Shown: in pieces, positions 3,012 to 35,257 of the stretch | Layout: each line of letters opens with the position of its first letter | How positions within the stretch are numbered: position 1 is the first letter of the stretch | Source of the DNA: a virus | Virus record (IMG/VR): IMGVR_UViG_3300017992_000019 | Location: 30,892 to 94,891 of that record | Strand: one strand, 5' to 3' | DNA length: 64,000 nt | The notes under the pieces: model-generated | Databases searched by the model: none | The model's input: the letters and a program-made list of their open reading frames with translations, nothing else | What the model was told of the DNA's origin: nothing | Made by a program: the position numbers and the translations under genes

Positions 3012-5303
3012 ATGTGTGCTCAGAGAAGAATCGGACCCGTTCGCGGCGCAGGCGTTGCGATCGTGGAAAAGGAAGGCGACAAACCGATCGAGGCGGGAGC
3101 TCTTGGGTGGGCGGCGTATGCCGGGATTCTGGAAAAGGGCGACGTCGGCAAGCTGATCCAAGCGAGCTCGAAAAAGGCGTTCGAGAAAAAGTGCGGCGGG
3201 TATATCGACGACTCGTTGCTCCCGGATGCCTGTTTCGACTACTACGATCTCGCTCGCGGCGCCGGCGGTCTGTTGCTTGTGAGGGTCACCGACGGAAACG
3301 AGTTGCCGTCGGAGGTGACCTTGTATGCCCGACGCACAACTCAGTCGCCTATGGGAACGCTCAAGGCGAAAAACGGGGGTCGGTGGGGCGGCAAGGCTAA
3401 CAAGTACACCGACGACATGCCCAACGGCGGCGCGACCGACCTCACGAACACGACCCTCGACACCGGGCAGGCCATGAAAACCGACGAGTGGAAAGGCGGA
3501 TACGTCGAGCTCGCCGAGGTGCCGAATGTGCAGTATCCGATCATCGGCAACGACGACGCCGGCGTGATCACCGTCGCCGCGGATCAGACCATGCTCGACG
3601 ACTGGACGGCCGGAGGCGCGACCGACGATCGGTTTTATCTTGTGCTCGAAAACGAGGGCAAGATGCTCTCCTATGAGATCCGCGACGGCGAGGAGAATCC
3701 CGACACCGAGTTCGGGCTTTTCATTTATGTCGACGGCGCGCTCGCGAACAATTGGGCCAACCTGTCGACCGATCCCGCGTCGCCGAGGTATTGGGTCAAC
3801 GTGATCAACAACGACGGCAACAACGCCGAGATCGAGGTCGTCGATCTCTGGACCGGAGCACACGTCGCGGACGTCCGGCCGGCGAATCACTACGGCGAGA
3901 TCGACACCGTGACCGCGACGGTCTTGACCGCGGTGATCCATGAGTTCAACCCGGCCGCGACCGGAGACGGCAACGGCACGTGTGCGCTCGGGACCACGAC
4001 CGACGACATGGTCGCGCAGACCTTGACGATCACTTTCACCGACCCGACCACATACGACGTCGTCTCCGACAAGTTCGGCACGGTCGCGAGCGGTGAGACC
4101 GTCGGCACTCAAACGGATCCAAACAACAAGTGGACACCTCCGTTCACCCTCACGGCCGGAGCGACCGCATGGGAGGCCGCGGACGTCGCGACCTTGACCT
4201 ACAAGCCGTTCGTGCCGGACTCGTTGATCGACGGGTACGTGTACCCGGACAAGGTCAATGCGAAGCGTGAGAAGTATCGGATCGTCGACAACGATCACGA
4301 CACGATCACCGCGGCACCGGGATCCGACCTCACCGTGAGCGGCGCGCCGGCCGACGAGTTCCTCGTCGTCGCTCCGCTGGAAATGGAGGGAGGCCGCGAC
4401 GGGATCGCCGACCTCACCGACGCGGACTATATCGCCGCGTGGGACACCGCGACCTCGTTGTTCAATCAGATCCACGGCAAGAATCTCGGGCTTGTGAAAA
4501 TGGCAACGCCGGGGATCACCTCGACCGCGGTGCAGAAAGCCGGGATCGCATACGCCGACGCGAAAAACCATCAGTATCGGATCGAGGTGCCGGACACGAC
4601 CACGACCGAGGAGTCGGCGGATCTGTACGTCAACGACACGATCGGGCGTTCCGATTTCGCCGTCGTGAATTTCCCGTCGTATGCGTATGTCACCGATCCC
4701 GACGACGACGGATCGGGCAAGCGCAAGCTCGTCTCATGCACCGGCATGATCCACGGCCGGGAGGCGCGCACGGCGGTCGACTACACCGGGTATCACAAGG
4801 CCGGCGCCGGCGTCGATCAGATCCTCCCGTCGATCCTCGAGCTCCCGACGGGAGACACGATCCTCGACGAGGAGTATCTCAACCCGCTCGGGATCGGTCT
4901 GATCAAAAAGGTCAAGGGCAATTTCGTCCTGTGGGGCGATCGCACCTTGCACGTCGATCCCGCGTGGAAGTGGAAGCATCAACGCGAGATGCTCTCGTAT
5001 TACGAGAACGTGCTCCGCGAGTCGTTCGACTGGATCATTTTCATGATCAACGATCCGGTCACCGAGAAAATGGCGCTCACTTCCATGAAAACCTTTTTCC
5101 TGCCGGAGTGGCGCAAGCGTGCGCTCCGCGGCGACACTTTCGAGGAGGCGGCGCGGATCAAGATCGACAGCGAGATCAACACCGACGTCGTGCGCGCGGC
5201 CGGCGAAATGTACGCGCAAGTCGCGTTGCAACTGGCCGACACCGTCGAGCGGTTCATCATCGAAATCGGCAAGCAGGGAATTTTCGAGTCGGTTGCCGCG
5301 TAG
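3012..5303 (+). CDS. Contractile tail sheath protein
   Basis: 763 residues from an ATG preceded by AAGGAGG (the in-frame TTG at 2988 is part of the leader). The C-terminal 190 residues have the sheath signature: a region with LGLVKMATPGIT, a VNFPSYAYV strand, a LNPLGIGLI segment, WGDRTLHVD, then two long helices (MLSYYENVLRESFDWIIF and NTDVVRAAGEMYAQVALQLAD) ending near IGKQGIF. Residues about 100-400 are an inserted acidic, beta-rich, likely surface-exposed region, making it longer than simple sheaths of about 400 residues. It forms the outer contractile cylinder around the tube encoded three genes downstream. Confidence 0.93.
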   Translation: MCAQRRIGPVRGAGVAIVEKEGDKPIEAGALGWAAYAGILEKGDVGKLIQASSKKAFEKKCGGYIDDSLLPDACFDYYDLARGAGGLLLVRVTDGNELPSEVTLYARRTTQSPMGTLKAKNGGRWGGKANKYTDDMPNGGATDLTNTTLDTGQAMKTDEWKGGYVELAEVPNVQYPIIGNDDAGVITVAADQTMLDDWTAGGATDDRFYLVLENEGKMLSYEIRDGEENPDTEFGLFIYVDGALANNWANLSTDPASPRYWVNVINNDGNNAEIEVVDLWTGAHVADVRPANHYGEIDTVTATVLTAVIHEFNPAATGDGNGTCALGTTTDDMVAQTLTITFTDPTTYDVVSDKFGTVASGETVGTQTDPNNKWTPPFTLTAGATAWEAADVATLTYKPFVPDSLIDGYVYPDKVNAKREKYRIVDNDHDTITAAPGSDLTVSGAPADEFLVVAPLEMEGGRDGIADLTDADYIAAWDTATSLFNQIHGKNLGLVKMATPGITSTAVQKAGIAYADAKNHQYRIEVPDTTTTEESADLYVNDTIGRSDFAVVNFPSYAYVTDPDDDGSGKRKLVSCTGMIHGREARTAVDYTGYHKAGAGVDQILPSILELPTGDTILDEEYLNPLGIGLIKKVKGNFVLWGDRTLHVDPAWKWKHQREMLSYYENVLRESFDWIIFMINDPVTEKMALTSMKTFFLPEWRKRALRGDTFEEAARIKIDSEINTDVVRAAGEMYAQVALQLADTVERFIIEIGKQGIFESVAA

Positions 5304-5336
5304 GTGTTCCGGTAGGGGGGGATCGGGAGGCCGATC

Positions 5337-5567
5337 ATGGTAGACGTGAAAAAGCAACGCGGACAAGGCGGGCCCCCGCAACGACAGGGCGGCAAGGCAA
5401 CTTGCGAATGTCCGAAGTGTGGGTTTGTCATGGAACACACCGAGCGCGGAACACCTTGCATCAAATTCAAGTGCCCGAAGTGCGGCGCCACGATGGGACC
5501 GCCCGGAGGCGAGCACGGATTCAAAAAAGAGGAAACCAAAAAAGGTTTTTGGGACGGCGTGATCTAG
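5337..5567 (+). CDS. Small zinc-ribbon protein
   Basis: A 76-residue protein with two knuckles, CECPKCG at residues 23-29 and a later CIKFKCPKCG, which together fit one zinc ribbon. The N-terminus is basic and glutamine/proline-rich. It lies between the sheath and tube genes with its own GGGAGG ribosome-binding site. Nothing links it to a known tail part; it could be a small assembly factor or a regulatory protein translated with the tail operon. It is one of more than a dozen zinc-knuckle proteins in this window. Confidence 0.7.
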   Translation: MVDVKKQRGQGGPPQRQGGKATCECPKCGFVMEHTERGTPCIKFKCPKCGATMGPPGGEHGFKKEETKKGFWDGVI

Positions 5568-5603
5568 CGTCGCACCGAAACGAAAAAACAAGGAGGATCA
5601 GTC

Positions 5604-5813
5604 ATGGCGGTAACACTGAAAAAGTATGTGGGAGACGGCGGCGCAGGTCTTGACGACTCAATGGGATTCGACAACCTGTACGACGTGCTCAAGGCACTCG
5701 CCGACGCGCAAAACGATCTGGTGACGCAGTTCAATCAGTTCCGGGCCGACTACAACGCGAGCACGGTGCCGACGACCTCGACCGATTTGGCGTCGGCCGT
5801 GACCGTCGAGTAG
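5604..5813 (+). CDS. Small hypothetical protein in tail operon
   Basis: A 69-residue protein with an excellent ribosome-binding site (AAGGAGG, then ATG). It has a helical core (LYDVLKALADAQNDLVTQFNQF) flanked by polar ends and a threonine/serine-rich tail. Its constant-looking codon use and position between sheath and tube support it as a real tail-operon gene. I do not recognise a family. Confidence 0.65.
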   Translation: MAVTLKKYVGDGGAGLDDSMGFDNLYDVLKALADAQNDLVTQFNQFRADYNASTVPTTSTDLASAVTVE

Positions 5814-5871
5814 GCAACTCAACCCGGTCAAAGGATCTTGTAGAGGGATCCTTGCCGAAAGGAGAAAGGCA

Positions 5872-6309
5872 ATGAAAGGCGTATTGCAGAAAGATCACAT
5901 CCCGGTCAACAAGTATCAGTTGCTTGTGCTCGGGATGCCGGCGCTAACCTTCACCGAGATTTCGGGGATCGAGGAGGAGTTGCAGACGACCGAGCTCCCG
6001 GATCGCACGACCGCCAGTGGAGGGCACACGGGCCCGGTCGAGTTCACCGCGCAAACTCCGCTCTGGCATACGATCGAGCGGATCGCGCTCGAGGCGTGGC
6101 TCGTCGAGGGACAGGATCCCGTTTCGCCTCTTTACAAAAAAGAGGCGACCCTTGTGTTGCAGTCGATCTCGGGACAGACGATCGCGACCTACTCAATGCT
6201 CGGGTTGTACGTGAGCAAGAGAGGTCTCCCGGATCTCGCAATGGAAAACGAGGGCGAGGGCGCTTTCATCGAATGGACTTTCAAAGCGGATCAGTTGCTC
6301 CCGGTCTAA
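5872..6309 (+). CDS. Tail tube protein (gp19-like)
   Basis: 145 residues, the usual length of contractile-tail tube subunits. It begins with a YQLLVLGMPALTFTEISGIEEE pattern (strand, loop, then the SGIEEE motif seen in T4 gp19-like and CIS tube proteins), followed by alternating strands and a C-terminal FIEWTFKADQL strand. It forms hexameric rings of the inner tube. The gene follows the sheath, and the chaperone and tape-measure genes come next, which fits the standard order. Confidence 0.88.
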   Translation: MKGVLQKDHIPVNKYQLLVLGMPALTFTEISGIEEELQTTELPDRTTASGGHTGPVEFTAQTPLWHTIERIALEAWLVEGQDPVSPLYKKEATLVLQSISGQTIATYSMLGLYVSKRGLPDLAMENEGEGAFIEWTFKADQLLPV

Positions 6310-6379
6310 CCGTCGACGCAACGACCCCGCAAGGTTTTGACCTATCAAGATCGCTCCGGCGATCGATTGGAGGTAAACC

Positions 6380-7386: not shown

Positions 7387-10041
7387 GTGGCGCTCACGAA
7401 AGTCGGTCTAGGCGCGGAAATCAACGTCAACCCGCGAGGAGCGGTCAAGGGCATGGGACAGGCCCGGGATGCAATGGGCCGTTTCACAAAGTCGACGGGC
7501 GACGCGACAGCCGCGATCGGCCGGACCGAGTCGGCCGCGACTCGTGCCGCGCAGAGAATCGGGCAGGCTTTCGTCAAGGCCGGCGACAAGATTGACAAGT
7601 TCGGGCAGTCAATGCGTTCCGTTGCAATGGCGACGGCCGGAGCAACGGTCGTCGTCGGCGCCGGCGTCAAGCAAGCGGCCGACTTTGAACAAGGCATGGC
7701 CGATCTCGGTGCCGTTGTTGTTGCCGGTAAGAATCCCCCGGCCGACGCAATGGAGCAACTCACGGCGAAAGCTAAAGAGATGGGGATCATCACCGCTTTC
7801 TCCGCGAGCGAAGCGGCCGACGCAATGCAAGAGCTCGCTCGAGCCGGTGCGACTGTCGAGGAGAATGTCGGCGGGATCAAGGGAGTGCTCGACCTCGCGG
7901 CCGCGGGGAACGTGTCGTATCAAGAATCGGCAATGATCGTCGCCAATATCACCCGGGCAATGGGACGATCGTTCAAAGACTCGACGCAACTTGCCGACGT
8001 GCTCGCAATGACCTCGGCGCGGACCAATGTCACCGTGACCTCACTCGGCGACGCGTTCCGATACGCGGCGCCGCAAGCGAAAGTCATGGGCATGAGTGCC
8101 GAGGAAACCGCGGCCGTGCTCGGAAAGCTCGGCGACGCGGGTCTCAAGGGATCGATCGGCGGCACCTCCTTTACAAACATGATGGTCAAGCTCACGAAAC
8201 CGAGTGAGAAAGCCAAAAAGATAATGAAGAAGTTTCGGATCGAGCTCGAGAATACCGACGGCACTCTCAAGCCGATCTCCGATATCGTCGGGCAGTTTTC
8301 GTCAAAGCTCAAAGGCATGACAAGCTCGGTTGATCGCGCGGCGATCATGACCGAGATTTTCGGGATCCGCGGACAAAAGGCGTTCGCCGCACTCATGCAA
8401 GCCGGCGAGCAATCGATCGCCGAAATGGTTTCGGATCTCGAGCAAGCCTCCGGCGTCGCCGACAAGATGGCGCAAACCCGTCTCGCCTCTCTCAAGGGGC
8501 AACTCAAAATGATGGCGGCATCGGTCGAGGGTCTCTCGATCGAATTGTTTTCGGGACTCGGCGAGGGAATGCGAGGCACGGTCACCGAGGCAACGGCGGG
8601 TCTCAATAACATTCTGTATGCCGTGCAAGGTCTCAAGGCGGCACAAAAGGAGGGAGCGGATCAACAGGCGGTTGTCAACAAGTTGACCGAAAAATACGGC
8701 GAGACTGTCGTTGCAGTCGCACAGGGGATCATGGACGCGATCCAGTTTATGAAAGACGCTTGGAACGCGGTCGTCGACACGATCAAGTCGGTTGGCCGGG
8801 CGCTCGAGTCGGTGCTCGGCAAGCGAGGCGTTCGGGTGCTCGTCGGGATCATTGGCAAGGTGACCATGCTCGCGGCCGTGATTGCACCGATCGCCGCGGT
8901 GCTCGCCGGGATCGCGTTTGTGCTCAAGGCGGTCGTGTGGCCGGCGATTATCAAGACCGGCAAGATCGTCAACTCGACTTTCGGGAAGTGGCTGATCCTC
9001 CTCACTCTCGTCGCAAAGTTCATCGGAGACGTGAGCGAGAAAGCCGGCAAGAAAGACGCGGCCGTGCAAGCGAGGATCGATCGACTCCGGTCTCGGAACG
9101 CGGAGCGACAAAAGCTCTATGCTTGGAAAGCGTCGCGGGCCGACAGGGCGGCGGATAGTGCGAGACTTGCATCGGCTGAAAAGACATTCCAGCGAGCGCA
9201 ACAATTGCGAGATCGAGGTTCCATAAGCGAGGCGCATTTCGCGAATCAGAAAAAGATCTATGCCTCCGAAGTCGATCGACATTCCTCAACGAGCTATGAG
9301 CACCAAACTCTCAAGGCCGTCGAAATGGCGCAGACCGCGGGCGACAAGTACCAAGAGGTCGCGCAAGGCGCGGTCGACGCCGCGGGCACCGCGTCGGAGG
9401 CATGGGTCAAGGGCGCCGGCGACGTCAAGAATGGAGTCGCGCAGATCACCGCGGCCGAGGAGGAGCTCGCCGACGAGCACACCGGGTTGATCGGTCTTTT
9501 CGTTGACGGTTGGGATCTGATCACCGACGGCGCCGTGCTCGCGTATGAGGGTCTCGGCGGCACGACCGAGAGGGTCAAGCAACAACGGATCGAAATGATG
9601 CTCCTCAACAAGGAGTATGATCGCCTCGCGGCCAAGTGGTCGAGGCGCACCGGTGAATTTCGAGCGCCGGGCGCGCTAGATGTTTTGGGGCAAATGGTAC
9701 ATGAGGCAATGGAGGAGGGGCGGATCAAGGGCGAAATGGAACGCGAAAAGGAGCTCATGCGGATCGAGAAACAAAAGGAGAGGGACAAGAGAGAGCAAGA
9801 GGAATGGACAAAAGAGTTTCATGGAAAGTTCGACGATTGGGCGAAAGCTCAACGCGAGGCCGAGACAAACGTCAACATCAAAAACACGATGTGTCTTGAC
9901 GGCAAGGCGGTCTCATGGGCTCTCACGAAACAGCAACAGGAGATCCAGCAACGGGCCGGCGCGAAGTCGACCAAGTATCAGCAAACCCTTTCGCGGCAAC
10001 ACGGCGCACTCCCGGGCACGGTCAACGTGAGCTCGTCGTAA
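7387..10041 (+). CDS. Tail tape measure protein
   Basis: 884 residues from a GTG with AGGAGG just upstream. Residues about 80-330 match the TP901 tape-measure core: FEQGMADLGAVV, an EMGIITAFSASEAADAMQELA helix, the YAAPQAKVMGMSAEETAAVLG repeat and FGIRGQKAFAALM. A hydrophobic segment lies about residues 480-535 (VLVGIIGKVTMLAAVIAPIAAVLAGIAF and following), as expected for the part that enters the host membrane. The last 300 residues are helical and charged. The protein sets tail length and fills the tube. At roughly 1.5 angstrom per residue it would give a tail of about 130 nm. Confidence 0.92.
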   Translation: MALTKVGLGAEINVNPRGAVKGMGQARDAMGRFTKSTGDATAAIGRTESAATRAAQRIGQAFVKAGDKIDKFGQSMRSVAMATAGATVVVGAGVKQAADFEQGMADLGAVVVAGKNPPADAMEQLTAKAKEMGIITAFSASEAADAMQELARAGATVEENVGGIKGVLDLAAAGNVSYQESAMIVANITRAMGRSFKDSTQLADVLAMTSARTNVTVTSLGDAFRYAAPQAKVMGMSAEETAAVLGKLGDAGLKGSIGGTSFTNMMVKLTKPSEKAKKIMKKFRIELENTDGTLKPISDIVGQFSSKLKGMTSSVDRAAIMTEIFGIRGQKAFAALMQAGEQSIAEMVSDLEQASGVADKMAQTRLASLKGQLKMMAASVEGLSIELFSGLGEGMRGTVTEATAGLNNILYAVQGLKAAQKEGADQQAVVNKLTEKYGETVVAVAQGIMDAIQFMKDAWNAVVDTIKSVGRALESVLGKRGVRVLVGIIGKVTMLAAVIAPIAAVLAGIAFVLKAVVWPAIIKTGKIVNSTFGKWLILLTLVAKFIGDVSEKAGKKDAAVQARIDRLRSRNAERQKLYAWKASRADRAADSARLASAEKTFQRAQQLRDRGSISEAHFANQKKIYASEVDRHSSTSYEHQTLKAVEMAQTAGDKYQEVAQGAVDAAGTASEAWVKGAGDVKNGVAQITAAEEELADEHTGLIGLFVDGWDLITDGAVLAYEGLGGTTERVKQQRIEMMLLNKEYDRLAAKWSRRTGEFRAPGALDVLGQMVHEAMEEGRIKGEMEREKELMRIEKQKERDKREQEEWTKEFHGKFDDWAKAQREAETNVNIKNTMCLDGKAVSWALTKQQQEIQQRAGAKSTKYQQTLSRQHGALPGTVNVSSS

Positions 10042-10051
10042 GGAGAGGACA

Positions 10052-10837
10052 ATGCCGGGTATAAAATTCAAGTTGCCGGAGCTCGAGAGTTGGTTCCTTG
10101 CCAACGACGAAACCCTCGAGGAGTTTCAAGGGCAGTTTCCCCCGCAGGATATCGCGCACGAAATCACCGCGGCGTGGGGCGAGGATACGGCACTCAACCG
10201 GCAACACACGATCCTTTCGTTTCTGCACGGCAACGCGGAGACGCTCTCATTCCAGGCGAGGCTTTACGCGCTCGACGCGCTCGACGACGTAACAAAGCGT
10301 TTCAAGATGCTCGTCGGTTGGGTGAAACGAGATCCCGATCTGAAACGACCTCCGATCCTGCAATTCTGGATCGGGAACGCGGCCGTGAGTTTTCGCCGGT
10401 GCATCCTCGAGGCCGTGACCGGGATCGTGTATCACAGTTTCCGAAACGACGGGAGCCCGCGCGATATCGAATTTACCCTCAACTTGCGCGAGTATCACCC
10501 TTATGAGTTTGTGTTTCAGACACCCGGCGAGACAGGTCAAACCCGATACCACCGGGCCCGGTTGCACGATTACTATGAATGGCTCGCGCAACGCGAATAC
10601 CGCGATCCCATGAAAGGGATCCAGATCCGCAACGCGCACCCGGACAAGCCAAACTTGCAACCGGCCGATGTCGTCGTAATGCCGAGCAAGGATAATCTCG
10701 AGACCGGGTCGCCGGCGCCGAGCTCGATCGCATTGTCAACCGCTTTCGGCCGGGCCGACACTCCGCAACGGTCGCTCCGGCTTTCGACATTTGACTCGAG
10801 AAATCGATCTTTCACCTCGTTGATCCAAGGAGTTTGA
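10052..10837 (+). CDS. LysM-like baseplate hub adaptor
   Basis: 261 residues. The start KFKLPELESWFL, then FQGQFPPQDIAHEI and QHTILSFLHGNAETLSFQARLYA, matches the CIS tube/LysM adaptor type (T4 gp53-like, Afp7-like) in which a GQFPP motif opens the first domain. The segment around residues 170-215 (YYEWLAQREYRDPMKGIQIRNAHP and PADVVVMPS) is LysM-like. These proteins clamp the central hub to the tube and wedges. The gene sits between tape measure and gpD-like hub, as expected. The C-terminal 50 residues are serine/threonine-rich and unassigned. Confidence 0.75.
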   Translation: MPGIKFKLPELESWFLANDETLEEFQGQFPPQDIAHEITAAWGEDTALNRQHTILSFLHGNAETLSFQARLYALDALDDVTKRFKMLVGWVKRDPDLKRPPILQFWIGNAAVSFRRCILEAVTGIVYHSFRNDGSPRDIEFTLNLREYHPYEFVFQTPGETGQTRYHRARLHDYYEWLAQREYRDPMKGIQIRNAHPDKPNLQPADVVVMPSKDNLETGSPAPSSIALSTAFGRADTPQRSLRLSTFDSRNRSFTSLIQGV

Positions 10838-20844: not shown

Positions 20845-22077
20845 ATGGCAGAGAAAGGGCGAATTCTCCGACCCGATCGCGAGAGTGCGGGTCAATACGG
20901 AACGCCGAAAGTCGAAAAGGCCGAAGCGATCGACGAGCTCACCGTGCGGGTTACTTTCGATCAGGACATGGAACGCGACGACTCGGGCGCGACCGACGAC
21001 GCGACCAATCCGGCAAACTACACTTTCGTCGTGACTGGCGGTGTTTCGGTCTCGGCCGTGTCGTGCTCGGTTGCTCGAGACTTCCCGACGTGGATCGATA
21101 TCACGCTCAACCGGGAAATGACCGCGAGCTCACAGATCGAGGTCACCGTTGCGTCGACGGTCAAGTCGAGTCGCGGCGTCAACATGGATCCGAATTACGA
21201 CTCGTATGAGTTCACCGGGTACGGTATCCGGCCGACAGTCGACAGCGCAACGGCCGTCGACGGGGTGATCGTGTACGTCGATTTTGACGAGGATATGAAT
21301 CAGAACGCCGCGTTGACTCTTGCGACGAATTACGTGCTCACCTCGCCGACCGATCCCACACCTCCCGGCGTTGACGAGGTGCGGATCCAAACGGGCTCGA
21401 GGGTCGAGCTCTGGCTCGACTCTGCACTCGAGATCGGCGACGACTACACGGTCACCGTGAGCAACGTCGAGGATCTCGCCGGAAATCCGATCCAGGGACC
21501 ACCCAACAACCAAGCCGATTTTGTCGGTGTTGCGATCGTGACCAAGCTCGAGAGCGCGGTGCCTCGAGACGAGAACACCGTGCGGTTGACTTTCGATCGA
21601 CAAATGAAGCGTGCGGATCTCGCCGACATTGGCAATTTTACACTCGAGCCGATCGAGGCCGGCGCCGCGATTCTGTATTACAGCGGCGTTTTGTTGCCGG
21701 CCGACACATACCCGACTTATGTTGATATCGTGTGTTCCGAAATGACCGACGGGAAAGACTACCGCGCGACGGTCGACCCGTCGGTTCGGGATAAATGGGA
21801 CAACACGATCTCACCGCTTTTCGATACGCAAGATTTCGAGGGTGTCGGGACCGAGCCGAGGATCGTTCGGGTTGTTGCGTCGACTCTCAACAAGTGCACC
21901 GTCGTTTTCGACGAGAGCATGAGAGACAACGCCGACCTCCGGGATCCGGCGCGGTATTCATTTGACAAGGGGTTGCAAGTTCTAGCGGTGCTCGACGTGC
22001 GAGGGAGCGAGGTTGATCTCTCGACGTCCGAGCAGACAGCCGGGGAGCTCTACACCTTGACGATCTCGCAACCGTAG
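20845..22077 (+). CDS. Tail protein with tandem Ig-like domains
   Basis: 410 residues built from four modules of about 95 residues, each starting with a (D/S)x(A/V)xxVDxxTV(R/Y)VxFDxDM pattern (RVTFDQDMERDD, VYVDFDEDMNQNA, VRLTFDRQMKRAD, CTVVFDESMRDNA). This is the Big_5-type bacterial Ig-like repeat. It probably makes an extended rod or stalk. The first ten residues AEKGRILRPD echo the end of the upstream adhesin, which suggests shared linker sequence. Confidence 0.75.
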   Translation: MAEKGRILRPDRESAGQYGTPKVEKAEAIDELTVRVTFDQDMERDDSGATDDATNPANYTFVVTGGVSVSAVSCSVARDFPTWIDITLNREMTASSQIEVTVASTVKSSRGVNMDPNYDSYEFTGYGIRPTVDSATAVDGVIVYVDFDEDMNQNAALTLATNYVLTSPTDPTPPGVDEVRIQTGSRVELWLDSALEIGDDYTVTVSNVEDLAGNPIQGPPNNQADFVGVAIVTKLESAVPRDENTVRLTFDRQMKRADLADIGNFTLEPIEAGAAILYYSGVLLPADTYPTYVDIVCSEMTDGKDYRATVDPSVRDKWDNTISPLFDTQDFEGVGTEPRIVRVVASTLNKCTVVFDESMRDNADLRDPARYSFDKGLQVLAVLDVRGSEVDLSTSEQTAGELYTLTISQP

Positions 22078-30417: not shown

Positions 30418-30794
30418 GCAAGACACGACGCGAACCCGAAGTGATCGACAACTCACCTCTCGTCGACGTCAAGATCGACGAGGTCGAATACAAGCTCACG
30501 CCGAAACGACTCCGGGATCTTGCCGGCGACATGCTCCTCGAGGAGCTCCTCCGGGTCGGCAATCTCCTCGGCGAGGCCGAGTCGCGACTCGTGCTCGTCG
30601 ACGCCGAGTATCGATCGTTCCGCGGCGTTGCAGTCAAGGCCGAGCTCGACAAGGATCCGAAACTGTCCGAGTGGAAAATCAAGGCGCGGATCGAAGCGAG
30701 CGCGGAGTTCCAGAAATTCAAGATCGGGATCGCGAAAGCGACGCGCGAGGTGCACGTGCTCCGCGAGACCCTCGCGACTCTCCGACTCCGGTGA
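30414..30794 (+). CDS. Hypothetical helical protein
   Basis: 126 residues, ATGA overlap with the previous gene. Mostly helical, with an acidic N-terminal strand region (VDVKIDEVEYKLTP) and a long helix (ESRLVLVDAEYRSFRG). The central pattern (E..R....AEYRS...VKAEL, then SEWKIKARIEAS.EF) loosely resembles the protein at 50379-50963. It ends the late block; the next 700 bases are non-coding. Confidence 0.5.
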   Translation: MSKTRREPEVIDNSPLVDVKIDEVEYKLTPKRLRDLAGDMLLEELLRVGNLLGEAESRLVLVDAEYRSFRGVAVKAELDKDPKLSEWKIKARIEASAEFQKFKIGIAKATREVHVLRETLATLRLR

Positions 30795-31484
30795 TCGTCC
30801 GGCCGACTTGATTGTCGGGATCGGGCGAGACCTCCGAATCGAAAAACCGAGCTCGAGCTCGCGACCGGATCGCGAGACCCGGAACACCGATCCCGTGGCG
30901 ACGGGATCGACCTCCCGGCCGGGAGGGATCCAGCCGGGCACCCGGCCGGACTCCCACCGGGCCCCGGGCCGATCCAGCCGGGCGCCGGCGACCTCGAGGC
31001 CGACCTCCCGGCCGGGCCGGACTCCCACCGGCACCCACCGGCACCCACCGGCACCCACCGAGATCCACCGGCCGGATCCCTGATCTCGGGTCGAGCTCGA
31101 GGCCGACGGATCTTTTTTCGGGTTTTTTCGGGCCCGGATCGCGGGTGCTCGTTGTGTGGTGCTCTGTGGCGCCTCACAGGACGGGCCGAGATCCGGGCGC
31201 AAACCCCGTGCCAGGCAGGGCCCCGGATCCCGGGAGACCGGGCGCGCCAGAATAGGCGCCTCGAGACGTCTCTCCGCGTCTCCTACGCTTGCCGGGCCGG
31301 ACACGACCCGACACCCCGGATCCCAGGCCGGAGGCCGCACAGGGCCCGCAATCGCCTCGCGCGAATTTCCCAAACAAAACGAGGCACTTACAAGAGGGTG
31401 AGCGAAAACTCGTTTTCGGTCAAGGGGTTGGCCGCTTGCAAGTATGCGTTCCGTAAGTGGAAAACGTACCGGCGAAAATAGTTG
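30795..31484. other. Non-coding GC-rich intergenic region between late and early blocks
   Basis: No open frame here has protein-like composition; those present read as Arg/Pro/Gly-rich low complexity on both strands. The first half contains reshuffled copies of short words (GACCTCCCGGCCGGG, ACTCCCACCGG, GATCCAGCCGGG). TTTTTT runs near 31113 and 31123 separated by CGGG may mark transcription ends. From about 31350 the composition turns less GC-rich. An inverted repeat CGAAAAC-TC-GTTTTCG lies at 31403-31418 and could be an operator. Confidence 0.6.
31021..31070. repeat. Five 10-bp tandem units (three perfect)
   Basis: GCACCCACCG occurs three times in a row at 31031-31060 and is flanked by one degenerate unit on each side sharing CCACCG. 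The period is one helical turn. It lies inside the non-coding region. Confidence 0.85.
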
Positions 31485-31513
31485 TTGCAATACGCGAAAC
31501 GGTGCCGTATACT
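31485..31513 (+). promoter_or_regulatory. Sigma70-type promoter
   Basis: TTGCAA (31485-31490), a 17-base spacer, then TATACT (31508-31513) make a strong match to the -35/-10 consensus. The predicted start is near 31520, exactly at an ATG, so a leaderless 65-codon frame to 31717 is formally possible but looks non-coding. An 8-bp stem hairpin (31548-31567) follows. Confidence 0.65.
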
Positions 31514-32087: not shown

Positions 32088-33029
32088 ATGACCGCTAATA
32101 TCGAAACCCTGAAGTCTCAGACCTTCGGCGTCGAAATTGAATTCGTAGGTTGCACCCAGGAACGCGCCGCTCGCGCGGTGCACTCCGTTGTCGGCGGTCG
32201 GATCTTCGACCGCACCGTCGTTGCTCCCGACGGTCGCAAGTGGAAAGTCGTCTCCGACGGGTCGGTCGCCGGTGTCGGCGGCGAGCTCGTGACTCCGGTC
32301 CTCAAGTACGACGACATGGAAACCCTGCAAGAGGTCGTGCGGGCCATGCGTCGCGCCGGTTGCCGCAAGCACTCCTCGGCCGGTATTCACGTGCACGTCG
32401 GCGCTCGCGACATGACCGCCAAGCAGATCGTCAACGTGGTCAAGACTTGGAATCGGCAGGAACGGATCATTGTCAAGGCGCTCGACATTGAGGGTCGCAC
32501 CTACGGCACCAACGGTGCTCGCACTTGGGCCGCGTCTGCAAACCGCGACGTGATCCCCCGGATCCTCCGGTCCAAGCCTAAGACCATGAACAAGCTCGCG
32601 GCCGCTTGGTACGGCGAGAGCAACTATGAGTCGCGCACCTATCGCAAGTATGACTCGAGCCGGTATCACGCGATCAACCTGCACAACCTTTTTTATGGGT
32701 CGCACGGCACCATCGAATTTCGTTGCTTCAACTCGACCATGCACGCCGGCGAAATCCGCTCCTACGTCGTGCTCGCTCTCGCAGTCGTCGCCAAGGGTCG
32801 CAACGGCCGCGGCGCCTCGGTTGAGCAGCGCGCTTTCAATCCCGAAACCGCGAAATTCGATTTTCGCCAGTGGATGATCAAGCTCGGCATGATCGGCGCC
32901 GAGTTCAAGAATGTCCGCAAGCACCTTATGAAGCGCCTCCCGGGATCCTCCCGGTCGGCCAACACTGGCCGGACTCGCGGCGGTCACGCTCGCCGGAACA
33001 ACAACGTCGAGAATCACGCGAGCGTGTAA
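32088..33029 (+). CDS. Putative amidoligase (Amidoligase_2 family)
   Basis: 313 residues; ATG with TTGGAGG upstream. Family landmarks: FGVEIEF at residues 13-19 (metal/ATP-binding E-x-E), SDGSV followed by GGELVTPVL, GIHVHVGA at 99-106 and IEFRCFNST at 209-217. These belong to the glutamine-synthetase-like COOH-NH2 ligases, predicted to make peptide-like amide bonds on small molecules or proteins. Two cyclotransferase-like genes follow, a partnership noted in comparative work on amidoligases. Codon use is unlike its neighbours: all 19 Thr codons are ACC or ACT and none ACG, and Gln is mostly CAG. The basic, Asn/Gly/Arg-rich C-terminus may be flexible. Confidence 0.85.
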   Translation: MTANIETLKSQTFGVEIEFVGCTQERAARAVHSVVGGRIFDRTVVAPDGRKWKVVSDGSVAGVGGELVTPVLKYDDMETLQEVVRAMRRAGCRKHSSAGIHVHVGARDMTAKQIVNVVKTWNRQERIIVKALDIEGRTYGTNGARTWAASANRDVIPRILRSKPKTMNKLAAAWYGESNYESRTYRKYDSSRYHAINLHNLFYGSHGTIEFRCFNSTMHAGEIRSYVVLALAVVAKGRNGRGASVEQRAFNPETAKFDFRQWMIKLGMIGAEFKNVRKHLMKRLPGSSRSANTGRTRGGHARRNNNVENHASV

Positions 33030-33041
33030 GTCAACCTCAAC

Positions 33042-33114
33042 CCCGGGCGCTCCGGCGCCCGGGTGTCGAAACGCCGGCAACGCGCCGGCGTCTATCGGGG
33101 ATCGCCTCCCGATA
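33042..33114 (+). other. Three consecutive strong hairpins after the amidoligase gene
   Basis: CCCGGGCGC/GCGCCCGGG (33042-33063) has a 9-bp stem closed by a UNCG-type tetraloop (TCCG). ACGCCGGC/GCCGGCGT (33071-33091) has an 8-bp stem. TATCGGG/CCCGATA (33093-33114) has a 7-bp stem. No T-run follows. They may protect or terminate the highly expressed transcript. Confidence 0.6.
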
Positions 33115-33158
33115 CTGACGAGACAGGCGACGACAAGGAAACCGAAAAGGAGGAAACC

Positions 33159-33551
33159 ATGTCTTGCAAAGTGTTCGTGTATGGCACGCTCCTCGAGGGC
33201 GAGCCGAATCACAGGGTGCTCGGCGACTCCGAGCTCCTCGGCACCGCGACGACTCGGCCGGCTTTCCGGTTTGTCGATTGCGGATACTACCCGGCCGCAC
33301 TCACCGACGGCGAAACGGCGATCGTCGGCGAGGTCTACCGGGTCAACGACGAGACGCTCGAGGATCTCGATCGTCTCGAGGGTGTTCCTCGGTTGTACCA
33401 GCGCAAGCGGATCAAGCTCGCCGACGGATCGGTTGCTTGGATCTACTTGCTCAACCCCGAGGGTTACTACGGCCGGCGCGAAATGCCGGCGATCGAGTGC
33501 GGCGACTGGCGCGCGCACCTCGACGCGAAATACGGCGCGGCCGCGTCGTGA
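33159..33551 (+). CDS. Gamma-glutamylcyclotransferase-like protein 1
   Basis: 130 residues; ATG with AAGGAGG upstream. It starts CKVFVYGTLLEGEPNHRVL, the YGTL-type phosphate/ligand loop of the GGCT/AIG2 fold, and carries LDRLEGVPRLYQRKRI, the LDxxEGxP region that holds the catalytic glutamate in characterised members. The length fits the GGACT/YtfP-type subgroup. GGCTs release gamma-glutamyl or epsilon-glutamyl-lysine amides as cyclic 5-oxoproline. Beside an amidoligase, it may edit or remove the bond that enzyme makes. Confidence 0.85.
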   Translation: MSCKVFVYGTLLEGEPNHRVLGDSELLGTATTRPAFRFVDCGYYPAALTDGETAIVGEVYRVNDETLEDLDRLEGVPRLYQRKRIKLADGSVAWIYLLNPEGYYGRREMPAIECGDWRAHLDAKYGAAAS

Positions 33552-33561
33552 GGAGGAAACC

Positions 33562-33795
33562 ATGACACCCGAAATCACAGTCGAGCAGAGACGGAAGTAC
33601 AGAGAGATCGACACCCGGAATCTCCGGGCGATCTTCATTGCCAACCCGCGCGGCGAAATGCGGCGCATCTTTCCGAAAGCGGCACGACAGGGAATCGGCG
33701 CTCGGAGCGTGAGCGAGATCGTCGTGTGCTTGATCCACGTCGGCGAGCTCAAGGTCGACACCGACTCCGGCCGGTATGAGTGGATCGGAAACTGA
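33562..33795 (+). CDS. Hypothetical protein in amidoligase cluster
   Basis: 77 residues with GAGGAGGAAACC before the ATG. An N-terminal charged helix (VEQRRKYREIDTRNLRAIF) is followed by a basic middle and a short C-terminal strand pair (ELKVDTDSGRYEWIG). It could be a small nucleic-acid binder. No family recognised. Confidence 0.55.
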   Translation: MTPEITVEQRRKYREIDTRNLRAIFIANPRGEMRRIFPKAARQGIGARSVSEIVVCLIHVGELKVDTDSGRYEWIGN

Positions 33796-33898
33796 AAAGT
33801 GTTCGAGATAGGGGATCCCGGTATCCGGCCCGACAGGCATTGACTCCCAATGTCTCGCGTTTCCCCGACGCGACGGCCGGCGCCGGGATCCCCACTTT
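33796..33898 (+). other. Long-range hairpin after stop codon
   Basis: GGGGATCCCGG (33811-33821) is complementary over 11 bases to CCGGGATCCCC (33883-33893), and AAAGTG (33796-33801) to CACTTT (33893-33898). The enclosed 61 bases are not coding. It starts directly after the preceding stop codon and ends five bases before the first three-way-junction element. Confidence 0.55.
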
Positions 33899-33902
33899 AT
33901 CA

Positions 33903-33962
33903 TTTCCGAGGGAGGAATCGCAACCCTCCCCGACTTGTGTCCCGGCGATACGGGATCGGAAA
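33903..33962 (+). ncRNA. Three-way-junction RNA element, copy A
   Basis: P1 TTTCCGA (33903-33909) pairs TCGGAAA (33956-33962). P2 GGGAGG (33910-33915) pairs CCTCCC (33925-33930). The joining strand is CGACTTGTG (33931-33939). P3 TCCCG/CGGGA (33940-33955) has a GCGATA loop. P1-P2 and P3-P1 are flush. It lies 36 bases before the start of the 108-residue gene at 33999. Confidence 0.7.
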
Positions 33963-33998
33963 CCCAAACAGGCAAGGAAACCTTGCAAGGAGGAAACC

Positions 33999-34325
33999 AT
34001 GCACGACTTTGACATGAGAAAAAGACGGATCCGAATGACCCTCGAGGAGACGAGGAAAAAGATCGTCGAATTCGCAAACAAGAACGACGTCGGTTTCGAC
34101 TTTCACGAGCCCGACTGTCCCAACGGAGTCAAGGCCAAGGTCCGCGGGATCTGCTTTGACAACGCGCACGGCGATCACGGCGGCGAGTACACGACCCGCA
34201 CCGGCAAGCGGCGCGGTCCTTACGAAATGATCGTGATCCTCACCGACGACGACGGCAACAAGATCCGCGTCAACCTCGCGACGCTCTTTGCGCTCGCGAC
34301 AATGGATCACCGGAACAAGTTGTAG
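33999..34325 (+). CDS. Hypothetical protein preceded by RNA element A
   Basis: 108 residues; ATG with CAAGGAGGAAACC upstream. It has a basic helical N-terminus (MRKRRIRMTLEETRKKIVEF) and a central His/Cys-containing segment (HEPDCPNGVKAKVRGICFDNAHGDHGG), which might bind metal, then EMIVILTDDDGNKIRVNL strands. The frame is open upstream through the RNA element, but only this ATG has a ribosome-binding site. No family recognised. Confidence 0.6.
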   Translation: MHDFDMRKRRIRMTLEETRKKIVEFANKNDVGFDFHEPDCPNGVKAKVRGICFDNAHGDHGGEYTTRTGKRRGPYEMIVILTDDDGNKIRVNLATLFALATMDHRNKL

Positions 34326-34334
34326 GAGGGCGCC

Positions 34335-34664
34335 ATGAGTGCACAAGCAAAATGGAGGGAGCTCGCGGTGAGGTTGAGCTCGGCGTTCGTGACCGAGTAT
34401 CGGGTGAGCGGAAAACTCGACAGGCTCGTTTCGCGCACCGCGAATTTTATCCTCGAGGATCCCGAGAACAACGAGTCGGTCGCGGCCGGGCATATCAAGA
34501 TCGAGCTCGAGGAGGATTATCGCGACATGCTCGGGTATTACAAAGACACCCAAGACGAGATCAAGCGGTTGACGATCGAGCTCGGATTCGAGCTCGCGAT
34601 CGCGGCGTTTGTGGTCTCGGTCAAGAGCGCGGCCATGCGTCGCGTCAAGGAGTGCCGGCAATGA
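34335..34664 (+). CDS. Hypothetical helical protein
   Basis: 109 residues; TAGGAGG before ATG. Mostly helical with an acidic middle (KIELEEDYRDMLGYYKDTQDEIKRL) and a more hydrophobic C-terminal helix (ELAIAAFVVSVKSAAMRRV). It overlaps the second cyclotransferase gene by four bases, so the two are translationally coupled. Confidence 0.55.
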   Translation: MSAQAKWRELAVRLSSAFVTEYRVSGKLDRLVSRTANFILEDPENNESVAAGHIKIELEEDYRDMLGYYKDTQDEIKRLTIELGFELAIAAFVVSVKSAAMRRVKECRQ

Positions 34665-35185
34665 AACCGAAAACCATATTACGCAAGGGCCGGCGCGACT
34701 ACGGCCGGCCGAGTCTCAACGAAACACTCAAGCTCGGCGTGTTGGTCTTTGCCTACGGGAGCAACCTCGACGTCGATCAGATGTTTCGCCGTTGTCCCGA
34801 CTCGCTCGTCGTTGGTCCGGCGTTCCTCCCGGGATACTCGCTCGAGTTTGTCGGGCACTCCCGCGGGTGGGCCGGCGCCGTCGCGAATGTCTACAAGTCG
34901 AGCCGAGGGTGTAACGTGCCGGGCATGGTCTACCGGGTGACACCGGAGGATCTCGCGCACCTCGACGCTTGCGAGGGTGTGCCGTACACATACGAGCGGG
35001 TCAAGGTCCGGGTGAAAATGTTCGACGGCAAGCGGCGCACCGTGCACGTGTATCTCCGACAGGGAGATCCCGAGCTCGGGTATCCGTCGGTCCGATACTT
35101 CCGGGCGATCTATCGCGGTTACATGCTCTGGCAGTTTCACACAAACCACATTACCCGACTGTTTCGCGCGGCCGGGTATTCATAA
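34661..35185 (+). CDS. Gamma-glutamylcyclotransferase-like protein 2
   Basis: 174 residues, ATGA overlap with the preceding gene. After a basic 25-residue lead the fold starts with VLVFAYGSNLDVDQMFRRCP, the YGSN loop of the GGCT/ChaC group, and continues with GMVYRVTPEDLAHLDACEGVPYTYERV, whose EG motif holds the likely catalytic Glu. It differs strongly from the first copy, so it is not a recent duplicate. The C-terminal 50 residues (SVRYFRAIYRGYMLWQFHTNHITRL) are unique. Likely substrate: a gamma-glutamyl amide tied to the nearby amidoligase. Confidence 0.82.
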   Translation: MKPKTILRKGRRDYGRPSLNETLKLGVLVFAYGSNLDVDQMFRRCPDSLVVGPAFLPGYSLEFVGHSRGWAGAVANVYKSSRGCNVPGMVYRVTPEDLAHLDACEGVPYTYERVKVRVKMFDGKRRTVHVYLRQGDPELGYPSVRYFRAIYRGYMLWQFHTNHITRLFRAAGYS

Positions 35186-35198
35186 GAAAGGAGATTGA

Positions 35199-35257
35199 CC
35201 TCGCGGAGAGCTCGTCGCGGAGCTCTCCGACTTTTGCTCCGGCGTAGGAGCGCGAGG
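35199..35257 (+). ncRNA. Three-way-junction RNA element, copy B
   Basis: P1 CCTCGCG (35199-35205) pairs CGCGAGG (35251-35257). P2 GAGAGCT (35206-35212) pairs AGCTCTC (35221-35227). The joining strand is CGACTTTTG (35228-35236). P3 CTCC/GGAG (35237-35250) has a GGCGTA loop. All other joints are flush. It starts 13 bases after the cyclotransferase stop and ends 24 bases before the next ATG. Confidence 0.72.

Follow-up and report, generated by a model that had tools for sequence, protein, structure and literature searches.

We analysed a window of 64 kb, bases 30892-94891 of the 94,891-base (94.9-kb) IMG/VR virus record IMGVR_UViG_3300017992_000019, in which an amidoligase gene is followed on the same strand by two genes for gamma-glutamyl cyclotransferases, named here GGCT1 and GGCT2. 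A hammerhead ribozyme motif, which the first-pass annotation of this sequence did not mention, sits between the amidoligase stop codon and the GGCT1 start. The four elements of the locus are listed below in window coordinates.

32088..33029, + strand: Amidoligase_2 enzyme of 313 aa, a predicted ATP-dependent gamma-glutamyl/carboxylate-amine ligase of the glutamine-synthetase/glutamate-cysteine-ligase (GS/GCS) fold (PF12224, phrog_2443)
33064..33132, + strand: type II hammerhead ribozyme with predicted self-cleavage after GUC, at 33092/33093 (RF02276)
33159..33551, + strand: GGCT1, a GGACT-like (YGTL) gamma-glutamyl cyclotransferase of 130 aa (PF06094, B clade)
34661..35185, + strand: GGCT2, a GGCT-like (YGSN) gamma-glutamyl cyclotransferase of 174 aa (PF06094, A clade)

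The amidoligase matches Pfam PF12224 with an E value of 4.5e-50 (171.2 bits against a curated cut-off of 22) and phrog_2443 with an E value of 1.5e-68, and it carries the motifs FGVEIEF, GIHVHVGA and IEFRCFNST just as the first-pass annotation had listed them. It is the only Amidoligase_2 gene in the whole 94.9-kb record and has no internal stops. Eight residues (E16, E18, E66, H101, H103, R192, E210 and R212) are invariant among 40 amidoligase sequences; they include the ExE (16, 18), HxH (101, 103) and ExR (210, 212) pairs and together would make up the conserved acidic/His/Arg set expected at a metal and nucleotide site. A sequence search against the PDB returned no match for the amidoligase, but a fold search did. 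The AlphaFold model built from the 40 relatives (mean predicted local distance difference test score, pLDDT, 87.8) found its best PDB folds with VIA-align in YbdK, glutamate-cysteine ligase, glutamine synthetases, gamma-glutamylmethylamide synthetase (GmaS) and the Pup deamidase/depupylase Dop, with Z scores of 11.2-14.8 (14.8 to YbdK and about 12 to glutamine synthetases over 190-240 residues). This confident model indicates that the amidoligase has the GS/GCS fold. Ligases of this fold, such as glutamine synthetase, glutamate-cysteine ligase, gamma-glutamylmethylamide synthetase and Pup ligase, join the gamma-carboxylate of glutamate to an amine. The common fold does not reveal the substrate of the amidoligase, which is about 8-15% identical to YbdK, glutamate-cysteine ligase, glutamine synthetase, GmaS and Dop, enzymes whose own substrates differ.

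The two cyclotransferases are likewise the only PF06094 genes of the record, again without internal stops. GGCT1 matches PF06094 with an E value of 4e-27 (95.6 bits) and carries YGTL and LDRLEGVP, and GGCT2 matches it with an E value of 7.8e-15 (55.9 bits) and carries YGSN and LDACEGVP, the cut-off being 22.8 bits. These matches bear out the first-pass description of two GGCT-like proteins near the amidoligase that differ in their loops (YGTL versus YGSN) and both keep LDxxEGVP. GGCT1 can be aligned to human GGACT (3jub) through YGTL, GxPNHRVL, LDxxE (E82) and Y88/LYQR, which places its Glu at human Glu82, the position that reads Gln in 3jud. Human GGACT Glu82 is listed as catalytic (PMC2954230). 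The best PDB relative of GGCT2 is human GGCT (2pn7), and its Glu falls at the position occupied by Gln in 3cry. Among solved and named enzymes, human GGACT is nearest to GGCT1 and human GGCT to GGCT2, and the catalytic Glu is common to all four; E. coli YtfP (1xhs) scores slightly above GGACT for GGCT1, yet lacks the catalytic Glu at the aligned position. By alignment, both GGCT1 and GGCT2 retain the catalytic Glu together with the YGxx substrate loop. With ExE, HxH and ExR invariant in the ligase as well, we saw no loss of active-site residues, which the first-pass annotation had named as telling against its proposal.

A tree of the cyclotransferase domains splits into an A clade and a B clade with a support of 100/100. 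Human GGCT lies on the A side, and human GGACT, YtfP and the protein of phage LUZ24 lie on the B side. As each clade contains its own human enzyme, GGCT1 and GGCT2 are not recent duplicates of one gene, and the domain tree assigns them to two ancient subfamilies. The distinctness of the two cyclotransferases, already noticed from their loops, is thereby placed at the level of subfamilies. Their identity to the human enzymes is low.

To see how the three genes are distributed, we collected amidoligase loci in viral contigs, in bacterial genomes and in phages, at most 80 per scan and chosen by similarity to the window amidoligase, and reduced them to 147 at 90% identity. Nearby cyclotransferases were sorted by two profiles, A (GGCT-like) and B (GGACT-like). 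An A or B cyclotransferase is found near 125 of the 147 loci, a count that is not a frequency in nature because the loci were picked for likeness to the window amidoligase. A alone occurs at 109 loci, two A at 2, A together with B at 12, B alone at 1 and a split B at 1; the remaining 22 have none, several of them lying close to contig ends. All 12 A+B loci (11 from viral contigs or the window, 1 from a Lentisphaerae metagenome-assembled genome) belong to one 17-row amidoligase clade with a support of 99, obtained by a quick method and with the window row on a long branch. In each of the 12, the trio stands on one strand and the catalytic Glu is retained in the A as well as the B domain. The order is ligase-B-A in 4, ligase-A-B in 6, B-ligase-A in 1 and A-ligase-B in 1. 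At two of the six ligase-A-B loci, L070 (9336-10232) and L182 (3109-3957), A and B are fused in one open reading frame (ORF); these fusions may go back to one event, since the two loci are near each other in the amidoligase tree. At L021 the three trio genes are adjacent. The B profile was trained on a few trio members; an independent Pfam run, which does not rely on it, gave exactly two PF06094 matches above the cut-off in each of the 10 viral trio records tested.

The first-pass annotation had called for a search for co-occurrence of these genes. Among GenBank phages, 41 of 49 records with a relative of GGCT2 also hold a relative of the window amidoligase, which is far above chance; the 8 exceptions are Bacillus phages. 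Beyond the trio, a single window gene (20845-22077) is weakly common to two trio loci and no other window gene matched, so the trio appears to move as a unit. These results uphold the proposal that ligase and cyclotransferases belong together. That they are coincidental neighbours in a hypervariable region, with no common pathway, is extremely improbable. Phage genomes are mosaic, and the module is carried at a different place in G001, the 91.6-kb phage holding L070 and a distant relative with matches to over 30 of the proteins predicted for the window phage; but chance accounts poorly for a same-strand trio at 12 loci, two fusions and the GenBank co-occurrence. The same distribution bears on scavenging, in which the cyclotransferases would break host gamma-glutamyl compounds down to amino acids or amines and the amidoligase would serve a separate reaction. 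Human GGCT and GGACT degrade compounds of this kind (glutathione, gamma-Glu dipeptides and gamma-Glu-amines are candidates), and PHROGs files the cyclotransferase family as an auxiliary metabolic gene. However, the cyclotransferases track the amidoligase clade across otherwise unrelated loci, which would be unexpected if the roles were separate, and we regard scavenging as very unlikely. The suggestion of two substrates or two steps for GGCT1 and GGCT2 seems a reasonable one, given that they come from distinct subfamilies, both accompany the amidoligase clade in 12 loci and are fused in two.

Phages with an amidoligase next to a single cyclotransferase have been described before; the trio appears new. 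For the known pairing, later papers credit Iyer et al. 2009 with the prediction of an action on cell walls or peptides (PMC11253131, PMC11318856, PMC10580990). A larger 'peptidoglycan modification module' has been described in PSA-HP1, RIO-1 and LUZ24-like phages (PMC5498523, PMC11945000). As in the trio, the module of phiEco32, LUZ24, RIO-1 and PSA-HP1 combines an Amidoligase_2 enzyme with a YGTL-type cyclotransferase from the B side of the tree, but it adds a COOH-NH2 ligase, a type II glutamine amidotransferase and a RimK-like ATP-grasp enzyme, and LUZ24 has one PF06094 protein only, whereas the window phage has two. With LUZ24 as positive control, neither the COOH-NH2 ligase (PF14395) nor the type II glutamine amidotransferase (PF13522) was found in the window record or in nine trio records. 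The LUZ24 gp21 query for the RimK-like ATP-grasp enzyme found no match in the same records, although a very distant homologue could escape such a single-protein query. Membership of the phiEco32/LUZ24 module was ruled out on these three absences, and the trio is accordingly a distinct and smaller arrangement.

The published interpretation of the related cassettes in phiEco32, RIO-1, LUZ24 and PSA-HP1 (PMC5498523, PMC11945000, PMC11253131, PMC11318856, citing earlier predictions) suggests a role at the host surface, in which the ligase would add unusual peptide linkages to peptidoglycan or envelope against superinfection and the cyclotransferases would trim precursors. It agrees with the transcription of the predicted peptidoglycan genes of HP1 immediately on infection (PMC7082346). 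We consider this role unlikely for the trio, because the three companion enzymes are missing from the window record and the nine trio records and no envelope enzyme adjoins the trio. Moreover, GGCT/GGACT chemistry depends on a free alpha-amine in the gamma-glutamyl group, and D-Glu of the stem peptide would lack one, which disfavours direct cleavage of ordinary peptidoglycan stems.

The pair of the same amidoligase family with a GGCT is found in phages and prophages of Bacillota, Ca. Heliusvirales among them; examples are PV036455, Terrisporobacter TPDSL_ph1 and prophages of C. clostridioforme. There, the amidoligase is about 33-42% identical to that of the window and a GGCT-like (YGSN) partner lies just downstream on the same strand, a layout that the window phage shares. 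The Heliusvirales-type pair differs in having one GGCT-like gene, or rarely two of the same type (L012, L013), and no GGACT-like partner was found; its amidoligases fall outside the separate 17-row clade that holds the window and the other trio loci. At L012 (6022-6486 and 6792-7241, separate) and L013 (1371-2609, fused), which are gut phage relatives, the two GGCT-like cyclotransferases come after the amidoligase. At L015 (Arthrobacter phage Salgado), gene 97 (5192-5644), annotated as hypothetical, encodes a weak GGACT-like cyclotransferase directly upstream of an amidoligase and a glutamine amidotransferase. A known anti-phage defence system was rejected as an identity of the locus with no PADLOC match, and an NCBIfam scan gave a sub-threshold chance match only.

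The intergenic hammerhead scores 48.5 bits against Rfam RF02276 (gathering score 37, E value 6.6e-7), and the 99 bases around it (33027-33125) fold with a z of -5.55. Its core elements GAAAC, GUC and CUGACGA are intact, the three stems are present, and loop I UCGCC (33102-33106) can pair with the 3' tail GGCGA (33126-33130), a pairing that has been described for type II hammerheads (PMC3088659). In RF02276 score, intact core and loop I-tail pseudoknot, the element resembles the type II hammerheads that flank phage genes (PMC3088659). L070 has a hammerhead of 45.8 bits (8960-9028) upstream of its fused cyclotransferases, where the pseudoknot letters differ from those of the window and yet are complementary (UUGGC/GCCAA versus UCGCC/GGCGA). 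A weaker one of 29.3 bits (10472-10520) lies downstream of the fused cyclotransferases and a small protein, so that the two bracket the cyclotransferase block of L070. A descriptor scan detected no further type II hammerhead in the genome of the window phage or of G001, and our literature search returned no paper naming hammerhead and amidoligase together. Multi-locus Rfam gathering scans missed the L070 hammerhead, which a narrower scan detected, and the absence of the ribozyme from other loci is consequently weak evidence.

Taking the fold, the catalytic residues, the linkage and the ribozyme core together, we tentatively prefer, with slightly less than even confidence, to read the trio as a phage module for gamma-glutamylation and its reversal, with a ribozyme separating the writer from two erasers. 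By analogy with ligases of the same fold, the amidoligase would spend ATP on turning the gamma-carboxylate of a free or peptide-bound glutamate into an activated acyl phosphate, and would then join the gamma-glutamyl group to an amine. The GGCT and GGACT families cut gamma-glutamyl bonds bearing a free alpha-amine, and GGCT1 and GGCT2 are predicted to release the group as 5-oxoproline from two kinds of product. Judging from the subfamilies, GGCT2 (GGCT-like) may prefer a partner that is an alpha-amino acid or a peptide amine, and GGCT1 (GGACT-like) a side-chain or simple amine. In the window phage and its distant relative G001, the type II hammerhead would cut the transcript between ligase and cyclotransferases, so that the two activities could differ in amount or timing. 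The purpose of the module may be reversal, protection or turnover. In a more ambitious form, this would be an undescribed phage module in which one ligase writes a gamma-glutamyl mark on amines of two kinds, two structurally distinct cyclotransferases erase it and the ribozyme uncouples ligase from cyclotransferase expression, for the reversible modification of a protein, nucleobase or metabolite; we hold that version to be rather doubtful.

Several points weigh against the writer-and-erasers reading. A ligase and a cyclotransferase acting on one product make a futile cycle unless they are separated in time, place or substrate. The amine-type versus amino-acid-type preference rests on a subfamily resemblance at about 30-40% identity, and, to our knowledge, many proteins of the GGCT fold have no known substrate. 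The literature searched gave no biochemistry for any Amidoligase_2 enzyme. The hammerhead was found in 2 of 20 records tested and need not be specific to the chemistry of the trio, as hammerheads of type II often lie between phage genes that are unrelated (PMC3088659).

Three small genes are interspersed with the enzymes.

33562..33795, + strand: small ORF of 77 aa, beginning 11 nt after GGCT1 (gene call)
33999..34325, + strand: small ORF of 108 aa (gene call)
34335..34664, + strand: small ORF of 109 aa, whose stop overlaps the GGCT2 start (ATGA, 34661-34664; gene call)

In the gene call, all three stand as genuine open frames and have good ribosome-binding sites, and none has a confident family match in the Pfam or PHROGs profiles. 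When compared by blastp and phmmer with every ORF of about 170 amidoligase loci, they gave self-matches only, save one weak phmmer match (E value 0.003) of the 33999-34325 ORF on the other strand of L074. Lacking a convincing relative near the other amidoligase loci, the three are unlikely to be substrates or carriers. The first-pass interpretation stands for the linkage of the enzymes and the distinctness of the cyclotransferases, and is not supported for the small genes. Another, previously undescribed family of small proteins (about 73-157 aa) recurs in 10 of the 17 loci of the clade, where it immediately follows either the amidoligase or the cyclotransferases, at the positions given here.

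L181, 6951-7418: member of the recurrent small-protein family
L105, 6937-7389: member
L159, 6952-7281: member
L188, 6938-7411: member
L183, 3600-3926: member
L185, 7720-7953: member
L070, 10225-10464: member
L033, 7997-8215: member
L021, 7735-8019: member
L180, near 7994-8206: member

This family is absent from the window phage, and its AlphaFold model, although confident (pLDDT 96.3), has no significant fold match in the PDB. It enters into another account of the trio, the biosynthesis of a compound with a protecting group, as in butirosin synthesis, where BtrJ and BtrG provide gamma-glutamyl protection followed by removal by a cyclotransferase. By that analogy, a gamma-glutamyl group would be put on an amine, another enzyme would act and a cyclotransferase would remove the group. 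The same pair of activities is at hand, two cyclotransferases could serve two steps, and the recurrent small protein might be the carrier. We find this account quite unlikely, as no third biosynthetic enzyme is conserved in the neighbourhood of the trio, and the candidate carrier is missing from the window phage and has a model without a significant fold match.

For years, amidoligases and cyclotransferases of phages have appeared in the same lists (Iyer et al. 2009, as cited by later papers), and the literature searched offers no more than predictions of their role. In the trio, the system is reduced to three enzymes in about 620 codons, without the other ligases of the larger cassette, and its chemistry is directly assayable, since human members of both cyclotransferase families have been characterised. 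Finding which cyclotransferase cleaves the ligase product would narrow the substrate, and L021, with adjacent genes, or L182 or L070, with fused cyclotransferases, offer handy constructs. If the ribozyme is active, the locus would exemplify how opposed activities within one operon can be separated by a self-cleaving RNA.

Among the proteins of the window phage are matches to terminase, portal and tail sheath, and replication-type genes for a family B polymerase, DnaB helicase, primase, RecA-like, SbcC/D-like and UvrD-like proteins and MT-A70. These structural and replication genes identify it as a tailed, myovirus-type phage. GenBank phages hold merely distant relatives of its terminase and polymerase. 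Single-protein scans per gene returned one 100% identical contig, IMGVR_UViG_3300017990_000015, which is probably the same virus, and one distant GGCT contig. Family searches of the replication and structural modules, which did not extend to every window gene, showed no base-hypermodification gene other than the MT-A70 methyltransferase. At L003, a PAPS-reductase-like gene (phrog_424; 5102-6349) lies in the early part of the phage genome. Upstream of the window amidoligase, a GC-rich stretch of about 700 bases (30794-31500) has no called gene and a sub-threshold Rfam match only. Two further RNA elements accompany the locus.

33811..33893, + strand: structured intergenic RNA of no known class, closed by an 11-bp perfect inverted repeat (fold z)
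35204..35229, + strand: terminator-like hairpin after GGCT2, a 10-bp stem followed by ACTTTTGCTC (inverted repeat)

The first of these has no Rfam match; it lies between two of the small ORFs, in a region (33793-33900) that folds with a z of -4.95.

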